This document shows positions 3,362-7,962 of a stretch of DNA of 25,696 nucleotides, piece after piece. The notes beneath the pieces are model-generated. The model was not told the origin of the DNA and ran no database searches. It worked only from the letters and a program-made list of their open reading frames with translations. Position numbers and translations under genes: made by a program. Position 1 is the stretch's first letter, and the number at the start of each line of letters is the position of its first letter. The DNA lies in IMG/VR virus record IMGVR_UViG_3300013131_000223, positions 1-25,696 of that record; one strand, given 5' to 3'. This stretch comes from a virus.

Positions 3362-3499
3362 AAAACTGTAAGGTCGCTTATAAAATATAATATTGACCCA
3401 TTGTCCCCTAAAGGGATCAGCCGAAAGGCTTGATGCTAGCAATGGTTTGGAATGGTAATATTTTACTTTCTTTCTTGCCAAGAGTAAAATATAATTATC
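3341..3499 (+). repeat. Three copies of an A/T-rich 15-base repeat
   Basis: TAAAATATAAAATTG (3341-3355), TAAAATATAATATTG (3381-3395, 14 of 15 identical) and TAAAATATAATTATC (3485-3499, first 10-11 identical). The last also forms the 3' arm of a 10-bp inverted repeat with ATATTTTACT at 3458-3467. Such iterons next to an integrase gene could be arm-type recombinase sites or repressor sites; which one is unknown. Confidence 0.5.
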
Positions 3500-3574
3500 G
3501 AAGCTTTGCGAAAGCAGAGCGAGCGCTTTCGGAAGATAGCGCGCACAAACCCACTGACTAGCATCGGTGGGTTT
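3398..3574 (+). ncRNA. Candidate structured leader RNA (or attP) of the second recombinase
   Basis: A first block closes with CCATTG (3398-3403) pairing CAATGG (3440-3445). Within it are a TCCC/GGGA hairpin (3404-3416) and a 7-bp hairpin with a GAAA tetraloop and one bulge (3416-3434). A 10-bp hairpin follows (3458-3467/3483-3492), and finally a perfect 8-bp hairpin AAACCCAC/GTGGGTTT (3547-3554/3567-3574) ending seven bases before the ATG. The loop of that last hairpin holds CTAGCATC (3558-3565), exactly complementary to GATGCTAG (3432-3439) in the first block. Long-range pairing would tie the two blocks together. A recombination site is the main alternative reading. Confidence 0.5.
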
Positions 3575-3581
3575 CGTGTTT

Positions 3582-4478
3582 ATGAAAGTCAAAGATTCGT
3601 TTAGCAGTTATCTTTCTTATTGTGCCGCGTTTGGCGGGTTTAAGAATATGGGGAATACCAGCAAGACTCTTTACGAGAAAAAAAGATTTTTGTATGGGGC
3701 AATATTGAAGTCGGTCGGAGAAAAGGATTTCTCTGGTCTTAACGAATATGACATCGTGGCTGTCCGGGAAGCCGGAGTGATCCACGGTATGTACGGCGCT
3801 CAGAGATCGGTGCTCTATTTTCGGCAATTACTTGACTATGCCGAAACAAGACTTGGCCAAAGAGTGCCGTTCAATTATCGTAAAGTAAAAATTCCCTTCG
3901 TCCCGGAAAAGAAAGTGGAATATCTTACGCCGGAAGAATTGGAACGAGTACGTGGTGCGTTTGATATACAGACTATGGCCGGATTACGGACCCGAACCTT
4001 GATTGAATTTATGATGGGAACGGCTTTACGTATTGGAGAAGTATGTTCGATCAATAAAACAAACTTCGACCTAGAAACAGGGAAGTTTTCTTTTATCGAT
4101 AAATACGGCGAGGAACAGGAAATGACTTGTCCTGAAAATTCTACGTGGTGGGTTAAAATGTATTTGGCTAGCCGGCATGACGACTGTCCAGCATTATTTA
4201 TTTCTGGCCGAGCAAGACTTGCCCCCAATAGTTCCAAGGGGTATATTCGAACAAAATTAAAACCGCTTAATATTCCTAAAAAATGTTGCCACCATATTCT
4301 CCGAAAAACTTGCGGTACTAATTTATTGCTCGATACGGACATAAAAAGTGTACAAGAGTTTCTCCGGCATAAGGATCCGAAGACTACAATGAAGCACTAC
4401 ACGGCTATAACTCAATATCAAACCAGAGAAGCTACGGCCCGGAATTATACGAATAAATATGTTGTGGCAATGGCGTAG
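3582..4478 (+). CDS. Tyrosine recombinase, Xer/integrase-like (second copy)
   Basis: A 298-aa recombinase taking the ATG at 3582; the frame also has a GTG at 3567, but that lies in a hairpin stem. An N-terminal core-binding domain spans about residues 1-105. The catalytic domain carries Arg150 (ALRIGEVC), Lys174, His238 and Arg241 (HHILRKT), His263 (LRHKD) and Tyr273 (KHYTAI), so it should be active. It is clearly diverged from the first recombinase, as its active-site neighbourhoods differ, so the two are unlikely to be a recent duplication. It stands alone between a terminator (3304) and a new promoter element that overlaps its stop codon, with a long structured upstream region that may be the phage attachment site. 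Confidence 0.93.
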   Translation: MKVKDSFSSYLSYCAAFGGFKNMGNTSKTLYEKKRFLYGAILKSVGEKDFSGLNEYDIVAVREAGVIHGMYGAQRSVLYFRQLLDYAETRLGQRVPFNYRKVKIPFVPEKKVEYLTPEELERVRGAFDIQTMAGLRTRTLIEFMMGTALRIGEVCSINKTNFDLETGKFSFIDKYGEEQEMTCPENSTWWVKMYLASRHDDCPALFISGRARLAPNSSKGYIRTKLKPLNIPKKCCHHILRKTCGTNLLLDTDIKSVQEFLRHKDPKTTMKHYTAITQYQTREATARNYTNKYVVAMA

Positions 4479-4514: not shown

Positions 4515-4652
4515 ATGAAACCACCTCGCAGAGATTTTAAGATGATAGCGAAAGTAAAAGAGTTCAGAAAAAAAGGACTCACTTTTCGCCAAATCGCTAA
4601 ACTCCTTGGAAAAGACCTAAAAACCCTTTATCGATGGGCTCATTATCAGTAG
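4515..4652 (+). CDS. 45-aa helix-turn-helix protein
   Basis: The short product begins MKPPRRDFKM. Residues 21-42 (GLTFRQIAKLLG followed by KDLKTLYRWA) form a compact helix-turn-helix of the resolvase/homeodomain-like kind. There is no room for another domain, so it would act as a small DNA-binding regulator, probably as a dimer or as a cofactor. It lies alone directly after the second recombinase and under a promoter element that would give a leaderless or nearly leaderless message. A directly repeated ATCATGAA overlaps promoter and start codon, which would suit autoregulation. Function beyond DNA binding is not known. Confidence 0.65.
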   Translation: MKPPRRDFKMIAKVKEFRKKGLTFRQIAKLLGKDLKTLYRWAHYQ

Positions 4653-4657
4653 GCAGT

Positions 4658-4666
4658 TATCCACAG
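4658..4666 (+). promoter_or_regulatory. DnaA-box sequence
   Basis: A perfect TTATCCACA, eight bases before the -35 of the small-RNA promoter. Binding by host DnaA is inferred from sequence only. Confidence 0.5.
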
Positions 4667-4674
4667 TAAGGGAC

Positions 4675-4703
4675 TTGCGTGCTTAAAATAGTTGGCATAT
4701 AAT
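4675..4703 (+). promoter_or_regulatory. Promoter of the small RNA
   Basis: TTGCGT (4675-4680, weak -35), a 17-base spacer, then a perfect TATAAT (4698-4703). The predicted start is near 4710. No good reading frame follows; the next element is a rod-like RNA ending in a terminator. Confidence 0.65.
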
Positions 4704-4709
4704 TATTAC

Positions 4710-4846
4710 GACAATGAAATAATCTTCTGTGTGTATTCGAGAAAGACATTTTAACACCACAGTGGAGCAAACGCTAAACGAGCTCCACAGTGGTTAAACG
4801 ATAAAATATCTTTCTTCAAAAGGCACACAGAAATGTGTGCTTTTTT
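4710..4846 (+). ncRNA. Candidate stand-alone small RNA or attenuator, about 137 nt
   Basis: It has its own promoter (4675-4703) and intrinsic terminator (4823-4846) and no convincing ORF. The predicted fold is a long rod: TTCTGTGTG (4725-4733) with CACACAGAA (4824-4832), 9 bp; GAAAGA/TCTTTC and ATTTT/AAAAT (4741-4752 with 4803-4814); CCAC/GTGG and GTGGAGC/GCTCCAC (4757-4768 with 4782-4793) around a single A-A mismatch. It is capped by a 13-base loop, AAACGCTAAACGA. The motif TAAACGA recurs at 4795-4801. The basal 9-bp stem uses the same CACACA as the terminator, so the two folds exclude each other, as in attenuators. A 6S-like or antisense role is also possible. Confidence 0.65.
4823..4846 (+). 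terminator. Rho-independent terminator of the small RNA
   Basis: GCACACA (4823-4829), GAAA tetraloop, TGTGTGC (4834-4840), then six T residues (4841-4846). A textbook intrinsic terminator with a perfect 7-bp stem. Confidence 0.9.
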
Positions 4847-4887
4847 CATTGTCTGGTCGAACATTAAAAACCAGATAAAAAAGTTCT

Positions 4888-4983
4888 ATGAAAAATCTTT
4901 ATTGGAAGATCAACGACAAATATGGTATTAAGATCGCCGTTGTTTGTCTCCTAGTAGGTCTCATAGTGGCTTCCTTAAAATAA
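4888..4983 (+). CDS. 31-aa membrane microprotein
   Basis: The ORF begins MKNLYWKIND, followed by one hydrophobic stretch (IAVVCLLVGLIVASL, residues 16-30) and a terminal Lys. That is a single predicted transmembrane helix with an N-terminal charged segment. It starts 41 bases after the small-RNA terminator, and its TAA is immediately followed by the ATG of the next micro-ORF, suggesting co-translation. The start lacks a Shine-Dalgarno sequence, like most genes here. The coding call rests on the clean membrane helix and the tight junction; function is unknown, though small phage membrane proteins often act on host processes or lysis timing. Confidence 0.45.
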   Translation: MKNLYWKINDKYGIKIAVVCLLVGLIVASLK

Positions 4984-5100
4984 ATGCCAAATATTTATTT
5001 TGTTGGAACCCCAAAAAGCCTACTTAGTTTTCTCGAAGAATACGAAAGCCTCTTCGAAGACAAAAGACGGGAGGAGGCCGATCAAGCAAATGTTTATTAA
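4984..5100 (+). CDS. 38-aa hypothetical protein
   Basis: The ORF starts directly after the preceding stop (TAAATG). It begins MPNIYFVGTP and continues with an acidic, helix-prone segment (SFLEEYESLFEDKRREEADQ) ending NVY. The composition looks like a real soluble peptide, with a beta-strand start and a charged amphipathic helix, but it is too short to assign. Coupling to the membrane microprotein is suggested by zero spacing. A 139-base structured gap separates it from the annealing-protein gene. Confidence 0.4.
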   Translation: MPNIYFVGTPKSLLSFLEEYESLFEDKRREEADQANVY

Positions 5101-5116
5101 AAGTCGAATATTAGCA

Positions 5117-5226
5117 GCGTTATATCTGTCTACCCTTGTTCATTTTAGATAACCGATATTCTGGTTTACTGGAATATGCGATTATCAGCACTACTTATAA
5201 CGCGGTGCGTATGAACGAGGATAGAC
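5117..5226 (+). ncRNA. Candidate structured leader of the annealing-protein gene
   Basis: GTCTACCCTTGTTCAT (5128-5143) pairs with 5211-5226 over 16 positions, with one mismatch and one G-U. Inside is a hairpin 5149-5161/5172-5185 with one mismatch and one bulge. GCGTTATA (5117-5124) is exactly complementary to TATAACGC (5196-5203), and this pairing crosses the long stem (order a-b-a'-b'). It is therefore either a pseudoknot or a switch between two folds. The region ends 14 bases before the ATG at 5240 and has no good long ORF. A very short ORF (MNEDRRKN, 5211-5237) overlaps the 3' arm. Confidence 0.5.
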
Positions 5227-5239
5227 GGAAAAACTAAAA

Positions 5240-6046
5240 ATGAAATCTAAACCTAAAAAAGTTTCAAAAAAGGTTTCGAAGAAAGAAACCAAAACAAAAA
5301 AAAGGGTAGTAAAAAAGACTACTCAAGAATTGAGAATTACGGTTGTCCCTCAACCAATTGTTCCTACAGTAGAAGAACTATCTCAGCCATTGACCACGTC
5401 TGGTAAAAAAATGGCCCTAGCTAAAACTTGGGTAAATTCTATCCAACTTATGAACTTGGTAATGCGAACTCCCAAGGAACATGTTTACTCTCGACCGGGG
5501 AAAGGCGGGCAAAAGTTTTCCTACGTTACCGGCAATTATGTCGAAAAAGTCCTTAACTTCGTTTTCGGATGGAATTGGGACTTTGAAGTTGTCGAACACG
5601 GCCAGACCGGGGATTTTATCTGGGTGCACGGCAAACTTACCGTGAAGAGCCCGGACGGAAAACAGACTATCACTAAGTCTCAATTCGGCAGGGCTGAAGT
5701 TAAATATCTTAGGAATGTAACCCACAAACCGGAGAACATGGTTGATTTCGGAAACGATCTAAAGGCTGCTTCTACCGATGCGCTTAAAAAGTGTGCCTCT
5801 TTGCTCGGGATTGCTTCTGATGTCTATGGAAAATCTGAATACAAGAGTGAGACCGGAAAGGACCCGATCGAACCTAAGGAACCTAGCGCTAATACTGATA
5901 CCGTGCCCGGTCCCGATGGTGAACCAGTGTTCACCTGCGCGATAGGGGATGAAATTGTGACACCTCAAGAGGCAGCATTTAGCAAAAAAGTATTCGGTAA
6001 GGTTCTATGTCGGGAACATCAGGCCGAGGCTAAGAGGAAAAAATAA
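5240..6046 (+). CDS. Rad52-family single-strand annealing protein
   Basis: A 268-aa protein. Residues 1-27 are a Lys-rich tail. The Rad52/Rad22-type core spans about 55-200, with SYVTGNYVEKVLNFVFGWNWDFEV (94-117) and STDALKKCASLLG (178-190), both hallmark segments of this fold. The C-terminus (229-268) has CAIGDEIVTPQEAAFSKK and ends near LCREHQ, a pattern like the zinc-finger-like tail of phage Rad52 homologues, though only two cysteines remain. It should coat and anneal single-stranded DNA during phage recombination or replication restart. The PD-(D/E)XK nuclease encoded two genes downstream is the likely exonuclease partner. It is the first gene of the replication/recombination operon, behind a structured leader. 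Confidence 0.85.
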   Translation: MKSKPKKVSKKVSKKETKTKKRVVKKTTQELRITVVPQPIVPTVEELSQPLTTSGKKMALAKTWVNSIQLMNLVMRTPKEHVYSRPGKGGQKFSYVTGNYVEKVLNFVFGWNWDFEVVEHGQTGDFIWVHGKLTVKSPDGKQTITKSQFGRAEVKYLRNVTHKPENMVDFGNDLKAASTDALKKCASLLGIASDVYGKSEYKSETGKDPIEPKEPSANTDTVPGPDGEPVFTCAIGDEIVTPQEAAFSKKVFGKVLCREHQAEAKRKK

Positions 6047-6048
6047 AC

Positions 6049-6231
6049 ATGGATTTAGACAAAGAATACGAAGCAGAGGTTATTGATTCGGGTACTACTT
6101 ATCCAGTAGTTCGTGTCAATTTCGAAGAAAAACTGGTTTATCTTAAAACCGGAGAACAAACATATTGTCGAAATGGAATAGAATCTTTTAGTTTTAATCA
6201 AGTAAAAATTAAAGAAAAAAGCCATGTCTAA
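6049..6231 (+). CDS. 60-aa hypothetical protein
   Basis: It begins two bases after the annealing-protein stop and overlaps the nuclease start by eight bases, so it is translated inside the recombination operon. The sequence is a small mixed alpha/beta protein (MDLDKEYEAEVI, VVRVNFEEKLVYLK, SFNQVKI) with alternating hydrophobic strands and one Cys, resembling a compact SH3- or OB-like barrel. No family is recognised. Its position between annealing protein and nuclease suggests an accessory role in recombination, but that is only context. Confidence 0.65.
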   Translation: MDLDKEYEAEVIDSGTTYPVVRVNFEEKLVYLKTGEQTYCRNGIESFSFNQVKIKEKSHV

Positions 6232-7147
6232 AGTCAAAGAAAAAGACGAGGAAAAGAAATACATAGAGGGAGAACTATATAAAGGAAAAGTGAAATATCG
6301 CTTTTATCCAATTTCTCACCAGTATTGGATCTCGGTCAATGGCAGTCCGTTTAAGAGAAAAACCGGGTCCACCACTTTTATCAGCATCAAAGACAAAAGT
6401 GTGCCTCTGGGAATCTGGCAACAAACGATGACGCTTGATTTTCTATTGAAACTCATTCATGCCGGCACTAAAGTTAACGAAGATTTAGCCATAGAATCGG
6501 TGATCCAAAACGATGTGGCTAAAGAAGAAGCGGTAGACATCGGTTTGGAAATGCACGATTGGCTGGAAAAATACGCACTGTTTAAAATGAAAAAAATTAA
6601 AGAGTTCCCAGAAATGCCCAAAATCAAGGAAGCCATCACTGGGGTAAATTCTTTTTTGCAGTGGGAAAGCGAACACAAAGTCAAATTCATTTCAGCCGAG
6701 CGCATTGTGTACTCAATGAAGCACGACTACATGGGAACGCTTGATCTTGAAGCGAAGGTGGACGGCGTGCATTGTTTGGTGGACTACAAGTCGTCTAATG
6801 GCCTTTACAACAGCGTGCGTATGCAGACCGCCTCTTATGTCGAGGCGGATCATGAAGAGAGAAAAGAAAAGGTGTATGAGGGGCGCTGGGCCTTGCGTTT
6901 TTCAAAGTACACCGAAGCAGAATATCTGCGCCGAGAAGAACGCAAAAAGATTCTAAAAGCCCATATTGCACGCATTAAGGGCAAAGAATCCAAGGACTAT
7001 CAGATCGTGCCTTATCAGGCATTTGAGGCTAGATTTCTGGATAAGAATAAAGGCATGTTGCCGGATGATATGGATGCATTCCTACATTGTGTCGGATTAA
7101 CGAATTGGAACAAGAGAACGGATTGGTTCTACAACCCAGAATATTAA
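6224..7147 (+). CDS. PD-(D/E)XK nuclease, RecB/Cas4-like
   Basis: A 307-aa protein with the ordered motifs of the PDDEXK exonuclease group: a helix with Gly107 and His111 (GLEMHDWLE), Glu159 (AERIV), Asp174 in GTLD, Asp187-x-Lys189 (DYKSS), and Gln201 to Tyr205 (QTASYVE). These provide the metal-binding and catalytic residues for processing DNA ends. The N-terminal 55 residues (H33 in SHQYWISVNG) resemble the leading segment of phage exonucleases of this class. It overlaps the upstream 60-aa gene and sits close to the Rad52-type annealing protein, making a two-component recombination system like Red or RecET. It lacks an Fe-S cysteine set, so it is not a typical Cas4. Confidence 0.85.
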   Translation: MSKVKEKDEEKKYIEGELYKGKVKYRFYPISHQYWISVNGSPFKRKTGSTTFISIKDKSVPLGIWQQTMTLDFLLKLIHAGTKVNEDLAIESVIQNDVAKEEAVDIGLEMHDWLEKYALFKMKKIKEFPEMPKIKEAITGVNSFLQWESEHKVKFISAERIVYSMKHDYMGTLDLEAKVDGVHCLVDYKSSNGLYNSVRMQTASYVEADHEERKEKVYEGRWALRFSKYTEAEYLRREERKKILKAHIARIKGKESKDYQIVPYQAFEARFLDKNKGMLPDDMDAFLHCVGLTNWNKRTDWFYNPEY

Positions 7148-7152
7148 ATTTT

Positions 7153-7962
7153 ATGGCGCAAAAAAGAATGATCGACAAAAAAATATCTGTCTCCGAGCAA
7201 ATCGCGGATCTCCAGGATTCTACTGTTCAGTTGTTCTTTACTTGGGCTATTCCGCAAGCGGACGATGCCGGGTTGTTGCCAAGATCAGCCCGGCAGTTGA
7301 AAGCCATGATCTTCCCGATGAAAGACGACATTACTCCGGTGATGGTAGAAGAAATAATAAAAAAACTTATCGGGGCCAAACTTTGCAAAGAGTACGAATA
7401 CAACGGGATTGTGTATTTGCAGATAATAAATTTCTACAAATTTCAGACCTTAAAGAGAGATAGGATGCCTCAAACTTTATTCCAATTACCGGACAAAATA
7501 AAGAAACCAAAGGACGCTTGGAACCATTTGGAAACCATTGGATTCCAGTTGGAAGACATTGGAAACCAAATGGAAGCTGAAGTGAAGAGAAGAGAAGAGA
7601 AGAGAAGAGAAGAGAATATAGACCTCCCTTTTGGGATAAATAAAAAGAAATGGGAAGAATGGGTAAGTTATTTAACAGAAAAAAAGAGGAAAAAACCAAC
7701 TAATCGTACTCTGAAACTACACCTGGGTAAACTTTCCAAAAATATAACTGGCCACATTGAGATGATCGACAGGGCGATAGATCGAGGATGGTCAAGTGTA
7801 TTTTTACCAGAAAAAGGATTTAATGGGAACTCTAATTATCAAAAAAGAGTTCGGGGGGCAGAAGAAGACCTGGACAGGAAACTCACCAAGGAAGAAGACG
7901 AAGCCCGCAAAAAAATAGAAAAACAGACTGCGCAGTTATTGGGGAAAATAACAACGATATAA
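7153..7962 (+). CDS. Winged-helix replication initiation/replisome organiser-like protein
   Basis: From ATG 7153 the protein has 269 aa; longer starts inside the nuclease gene are less likely. Residues 1-110 match the N-terminal winged helix of phage replisome organisers: RMIDKKISVSEQ, LFFTWAIPQADDAGLL, LKAMIFP, and YNGIVYLQIINFYKFQ. A charged linker (about 145-155, KRREE repeats) leads to a basic C-terminal domain with a helical tail. It probably binds the phage origin and recruits host helicase, since the window holds no phage polymerase or helicase. The linker is encoded by six tandem GAAGA units (7584-7616), where slippage would shift the frame and separate the two domains. Confidence 0.75.
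   Translation: MAQKRMIDKKISVSEQIADLQDSTVQLFFTWAIPQADDAGLLPRSARQLKAMIFPMKDDITPVMVEEIIKKLIGAKLCKEYEYNGIVYLQIINFYKFQTLKRDRMPQTLFQLPDKIKKPKDAWNHLETIGFQLEDIGNQMEAEVKRREEKRREENIDLPFGINKKKWEEWVSYLTEKKRKKPTNRTLKLHLGKLSKNITGHIEMIDRAIDRGWSSVFLPEKGFNGNSNYQKRVRGAEEDLDRKLTKEEDEARKKIEKQTAQLLGKITTI
7584..7616 (+). repeat. Pentanucleotide microsatellite (GAAGA), six full copies plus three bases
   Basis: GAAGA is repeated six times from 7584 to 7613 and followed by GAA, within the initiator gene. It encodes KRREE repeats. Because five is not a multiple of three, gain or loss of a unit changes the frame. Confidence 0.9.

Follow-up and report, generated by a model that had tools for sequence, protein, structure and literature searches.

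The DNA analysed here (the window) is the whole of a 25.7-kb uncultivated virus record, IMGVR_UViG_3300013131_000223, positions 1–25,696. It evidently derives from a tailed phage, judging from its terminase and its SU10-type portal and capsid genes, and it also encodes a peptidoglycan-binding protein and two tyrosine recombinases. One recombinase, int1 (273 amino acids, 535–1356), has a counterpart of 63% identity in a related phage, L002. The only close relative found for the other, int2, is in L002 as well, a phage that also carries the element described below. Behind int2 and a gene for a small helix-turn-helix (HTH) protein, a stretch of 235 nt separates the pair from an early operon; this region had been described as lacking a gene, and an ORF scan of the window indeed found no frame of at least 40 amino acids within 4653–4887. 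Arranged in order along this stretch are a TTATCCACA box, a promoter, a rod-like fold (4725–4832), an intrinsic terminator and the leader GGTCGAACATTAAAAA. No further copy of the element was found in the record, and a repeat or mobile element was rejected on this ground. The features, all on the plus strand, are as follows.

3582–4478, +: int2, tyrosine recombinase (Pfam PF00589, E = 1.7e-20), upstream of the putative attenuator
4515–4652, +: 45-amino-acid HTH protein (Pfam HTH_23, E = 2e-5), between int2 and the putative attenuator
4657–4665, +: TTATCCACA box, ~30–40 bp upstream of the promoter −10
4675–4703, +: predicted promoter TTGCGT-N17-TATAAT; L002 has TTGTCT-N17-TATAAT at the equivalent place
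4710–4719, +: predicted transcript 5′ end and 5′ half of an outer stem; pairs with 4844–4853 (U-run and following bases)
4725–4733, +: 5′ arm TTCTGTGTG of the base stem (antiterminator); pairs with 4824–4832
4739–4816, +: rod with stems GAGAAAGA/TCTTTCTT, ATTTTA/TAAAAT, ACCAC/GTGGT and GTGGAGC/GCTCCAC (z −7; fold also in L002)
4757–4793, +: conserved 37-nt core CCACARTGGNNYAAACGNTAAA....C.CCACAGTGG; 27 of 37 positions identical to L002 7250–7286 without gaps, counted by eye
4769–4781, +: apical loop AAACGCTAAACGA, 13 nt, from sequence and fold
4793–4806, +: second, partly unpaired motif copy on the 3′ side of the rod, GTTAAACGATAAAA; L002 counterpart AGCAAGAGGTAAAAT
4823–4846, +: intrinsic terminator GCACACA-GAAA-TGTGTGC-TTTTTT, exclusive with the base stem; L002 counterpart GCACTC-GAAA-GGGTGC-TTTTTTT
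4855–4870, +: operon leader GGTCGAACATTAAAAA; L002 shares the motif, which in L004, L006 and L007 follows the promoter directly
4888–4983, +: first ORF after the putative attenuator, a 31-amino-acid protein with a hydrophobic stretch (translation; phrog_35112, E = 0.0025)
4984–5100, +: 38-amino-acid small ORF (translation; no match in the PHROG search)
5240–6046, +: Rad52-like annealase (Pfam Rad52_Rad22, E = 3e-8)
6224–7147, +: exonuclease, after the annealase (PHROGs)
7087–7962, +: replication-initiation protein, after the exonuclease (PHROGs)

The TATAAT promoter named in the preliminary description is present, with its −10 at 4698–4703, TTGCGT at 4675–4680 and a 17-bp spacer. Transcription would start near 4710, so that a transcript ending at 4846 measures ~137 nt, the length proposed earlier. 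A simple promoter scan with a threshold of at least 4/6 matches per hexamer did not list the window promoter; it did list that of L002 (TTGTCT-17-TATAAT, 10/12). The TTATCCACA box, which we take to fit the DnaA-box consensus, also lies upstream of the corresponding early promoters in L002, L004, L005, L006 and L007. The sequence AGTTATCCACA occurs three times in the window (4657, 14424 and, on the minus strand, 3318), against 0.1 expected, and repeatedly lies ~30–60 bp upstream of promoter-like sequences in the window, L002, L004–L007, L056, L057 and L064; it is possibly a site at which DnaA or another host factor serves as a promoter regulator. In L056 (2014–2110), a promoter with a TTATCCACA box lies behind the terminase gene, and a hairpin resembling a terminator (GTCCGC...GGCGGATTTATTTTTTT) follows it within ~50 nt; promoter-proximal terminators may thus recur in this phage group.

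The segment 4711–4846 has a predicted folding energy of −47.1 kcal/mol (z = −7.05), equalled by 0 of 200 shuffles, and 4675–4846 gives z = −5.77, in line with the earlier description of a rod with a 9-bp base stem and a 13-nt loop. The base stem joins TTCTGTGTG to CACACAGAA (4824–4832) and overlaps the 5′ arm and loop of the terminator, which is as perfect as had been noted; the two folds are therefore mutually exclusive. This competition for the same bases had also been claimed, and it recurs in L002 in changed letters. Among upstream segments, the best complement of the terminator arm is 10 bp long, a length reached in 0.05% of dinucleotide shuffles (P = 0.0005), and the L002 arm has an upstream complement of 8 bp (P = 0.008); these are simple-shuffle values for a region that the preliminary description had already singled out, those for L002 being independent of that choice.

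In both phages, the predicted energies of the two states differ by no more than ~3 kcal/mol, which makes the states nearly isoenergetic. At the end of the U-run, the anti-termination and termination folds come to −44.3 versus −47.3 kcal/mol in the window and −35.3 versus −37.3 in L002; once 4854 has been reached in the window they come to −53.5 versus −53.6, and a few bases on in L002 to −38.8 versus −37.3. The outer stem comprises ten contiguous pairs (−12.4 kcal/mol; matched in 4 of 1,000 shuffles) and is weaker in L002 (33 of 1,000). A stem that uses bases past the terminator is what would be expected if read-through RNA were a real product. In prefix folding, a thermodynamic argument that involves no kinetic simulation, the base stem was part of the best fold at every 3′ end checked, from 4830 up to the closing of the terminator at 4842.

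L002 was the one relative found with the same int2 (integrase 80% identical over the int2 reading frame, terminase 73%). It has the same order of int2, a small ORF, TTATCCACA, a TATAAT promoter, rod, terminator and GGTCGAAC leader; its next larger ORF belongs to the replication-initiation type, not to Rad52, and its leader region holds further inserted structure. The two rods align without gaps over 114 nt, with 60 identical and 54 changed columns, and the folds agree, 31 of 39 pairs lying no more than 1 column apart, with helices slipping by one base. When the 54 variable letters of L002 were permuted, 4 of 1,000 permutations had an energy as good and 6 of 1,000 a fold overlap as good; for the variable letters of the window, neither was equalled in 1,000. 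Homologue alignment, which had been proposed as a check, thus found the stems kept (n = 2). Five pairs are changed on both sides, a count made in a register picked to fit both sequences, so that the 100% pairing of the consensus holds by construction. On the plain alignment, RNAalifold favoured the terminator and missed most of the rod, owing to a one-base shift in register between the two rods. The best-conserved part has the common form CCACARTGG..(Y)AAACGNTAAA....CCACAGTGG, and in both phages its AAACGNTAAA lies unpaired in the apical loop; it is likely to be the contact site for a putative signal. Because of the L002 permutation results and the 8-bp complement, we conclude that, in these two phages, the rod and the base-stem/terminator competition appear to have been kept, beyond chance, while the letters changed.

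Integrase and DNA-pattern scans of viral contigs and a DNA search of phage records returned L002 as the only further homologue, and neither scanning bacterial and archaeal genomes for the integrase nor running a covariance model over 18 phage records added a member. A broad DNA pattern matched 35 stretches, one of them in the record of L002; the other 34 did not have such a layout. A boxA-like ACATTTTAACA of the window is absent in L002. The insert of L002 (7374–7550) places ~180 nt, apparently structured, between its leader and first ORF; within it CCTCCCTTGTCTATGG pairs with CCATAGACGGAGG and GGGGATCGACTCCC forms a hairpin, and it was neither a tRNA by ARAGORN nor a meaningful match to Rfam.

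How the operon is reached bears directly on what the element does. In L004, L006 and L007, which have related Rad52-type operons, the TTATCCACA box and a promoter-like sequence lead to a GTCGAA(Y)ATTA leader with no terminator between; the window and L002 have the rod and terminator inserted at this point. No good promoter candidate was apparent between terminator and leader, by sequence or promoter scan, in either phage, and the operon would therefore be reached through the terminator. It is mainly for this reason that we prefer a cis-acting element to a free-standing small RNA. The element is, we think, probably a transcription attenuator in the 5′ leader of an early recombination and replication operon, presumably controlling the two small ORFs, Rad52, the exonuclease and the replication-initiation gene. 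An intrinsic terminator lies between the promoter and the first ORF at 4888, an alternative fold uses its bases in two phages, and both folds are conserved in the one relative. An attenuator for the downstream operon was among the options raised previously and is well supported by the competition kept in L002, the lack of an obvious promoter between terminator and leader, and the relatives in which promoter and leader are adjacent. Against it stand the small number of sequences carrying the element, two, with correspondingly thin covariation, and the failure to recognise a ligand or leader peptide.

In the model that we propose, transcription would start near 4710 and the nascent RNA would fold into the long rod, whose base stem could form once 4824–4832 has been made, before the 3′ arm of the terminator exists. 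As long as the base stem held, the terminator would be blocked and polymerase would continue through the leader to the genes for the small proteins, Rad52 and replication. Opening the stem or preventing it from forming, for instance by a protein or RNA bound at the AAACGNTAAA loop or at the 5′ arm, would let the terminator form, and only the ~137-nt RNA would be made. Read-through would then be the default and a rod-opening signal would bring about termination; transcription, the direction of control and the signal itself are what we infer. The 45-amino-acid HTH protein may be the regulator.

Several other readings of the locus were weighed against this one. The hairpin could be a plain terminator of int2 and the HTH gene whose competition with the base stem is fortuitous, yet the same competition recurs in L002. 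Leader-peptide attenuation was rejected: a GTG-started frame of 22 codons runs through the window rod but is not conserved, the L002 frame being different in both sequence and length and lacking a clear start signal. A DNA-level element beside int2 (attP, origin or cruciform), with the TTATCCACA box as part of an origin, would account for the adjoining integrase gene and DnaA-type box, and the minus strand of the window folds about as well as the plus strand; in L002 the plus strand folds better. Strand bias in folding does not tell an RNA role from a DNA role. We regard a DNA-level element as improbable, given a promoter and a T-run terminator on one strand, the conserved terminator/antiterminator competition and a box that also precedes other promoters of these phages; an origin was also sought by GC skew, which has no switch at 4.7 kb. 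The 6S-like RNA suggested in the preliminary description, which would bind RNA polymerase, shares a long rod with its own promoter and terminator. Such RNAs are 180–200 nt long; the rod here is ~110 nt and has no large symmetric central bubble. The Rfam search that had been proposed to decide this gave no match at the gathering score (Rfam 15, whole window) and nothing meaningful, for 6S or any other family, at E up to 5 in the element region of the window and L002, so that a 6S RNA can be practically discounted.

The architecture does not support the independent small RNA that had been put forward as the primary identity, although the terminated short form could still act in trans. A trans-acting phage RNA that pairs through its AAACGCTAAACGA loop, with read-through incidental, is compatible with the locus having its own promoter and strong terminator and with the conservation of the loop sequence in L002. 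For the earlier antisense proposal there is one suggestive lead: GCTAAACGA of the loop is perfectly complementary over 9 nt to TCGTTTAGC at 3597–3605, codons 6–8 of int2, the longest match of the apical loop within the window. A match of this length is found in 0.16% of 50-nt windows, a figure that is uncorrected for the many loops and sites tried. The match is not conserved, as the longest complement at the int2 start of L002 is 5–6 nt. Such an RNA would not need a base stem able to disable its terminator, but exactly this is conserved, and the operon behind it has no evident second promoter; we consider this reading unlikely. More doubtful again is a dual-function locus like IsrK of Gifsy-1, which has the same architecture (PMC4825925); here the short RNA and the read-through mRNA would both be functional, and the short form would act on the long form or on the integrase mRNA. 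The same sequences fit an attenuator as well as a loop with an upstream target, but no conserved target was found in the window and L002. Less probable still, and speculative, is that the ~137-nt RNA founds a new family of phage switches, gating the early replication operon through the terminator/antiterminator choice and, in its terminated form, acting in trans via its loop on the mRNA of the neighbouring int2; if so, a single RNA fold would set replication against integration.

The attenuator that we favour can be compared with known systems. Like attenuators and transcriptional riboswitches, it would be a leader with two exclusive folds, one of them an intrinsic terminator, between a promoter and an operon; it differs from them in using the stem that closes a ~110-nt rod as its antiterminator. 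The element had no recognisable leader peptide or T-box, no known aptamer and no known protein site, and Rfam gave no match. It is best placed among terminator/antiterminator leaders, as new to the attenuator class and unassigned within it. In satellite phage P4, leader termination depends on CI RNA, a processed antisense RNA, and the put RNAs of HK022 modify polymerase and are not known to compete with a terminator; the likeness is that a structured leader RNA and termination control early phage transcription. Gifsy-1 IsrK is a phage RNA whose short form ends at a promoter-proximal terminator, and partial read-through gives a second, mRNA isoform for downstream small ORFs; its alternative folds are likewise nearly equal in predicted energy, but they control translation (orf45-anrP), not the terminator (PMC4825925). 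In the arbitrium system of phi3T and SPbeta, a promoter-proximal terminator in the lysis/lysogeny region, the aimP-aimX terminator, decides downstream expression by read-through, and it is antiterminated by DNA-bound AimR, whereas here the switch seems to be built into the RNA (PMC10769878). The likeness to IsrK and aimX is one of architecture; neither is known to share this rod, and no sequence relation with IsrK is expected. No AimR-like gene was recognised among the genes examined around the element.

Two further structured leaders were observed in both phages. One (window 5114–5232, L002 7735–7825; z −4.7 and −5.1, no Rfam match) immediately precedes the start codon (ATG) of the next large gene, which is Rad52 in the window and the replication-type ORF in L002. 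It forms a three-way junction closed by CTGTCTACCCTTGTTCAT/ATGAACGAGGATAGACGG, with GCATTATA/TATAATGC and changed stems in L002, and its hairpin loop TATAACGC could pair with the upstream GCGTTATA. The other is the int2 leader (window 3395–3581, L002 5868–6017; z −5.4 and −5.3, no meaningful Rfam match), which has a closing stem CCATTG/CAATGG (CCACTG/CAGTGG in L002) and a GAAA tetraloop. Before the ATG it has a terminator-like hairpin whose loop CTAGCATC (TTAGCC in L002) is complementary to the leader segment GATGCTAG (GGCTAA in L002); the start of the integrase may thus be under pseudoknot control.

The attenuator makes precise, testable predictions (two stems and one loop motif) and, given more members, could seed a new Rfam family. 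It lies in a group of uncultivated phages for which gene control has not been described. Whether the replication and recombination genes of this phage are read would probably be decided by a two-way fold. If this is right, the element would be an RNA-based decision point between the integrase module and the replication operon, and the layout of int2 with a small HTH gene hints at a lysis/lysogeny switch operating through termination.
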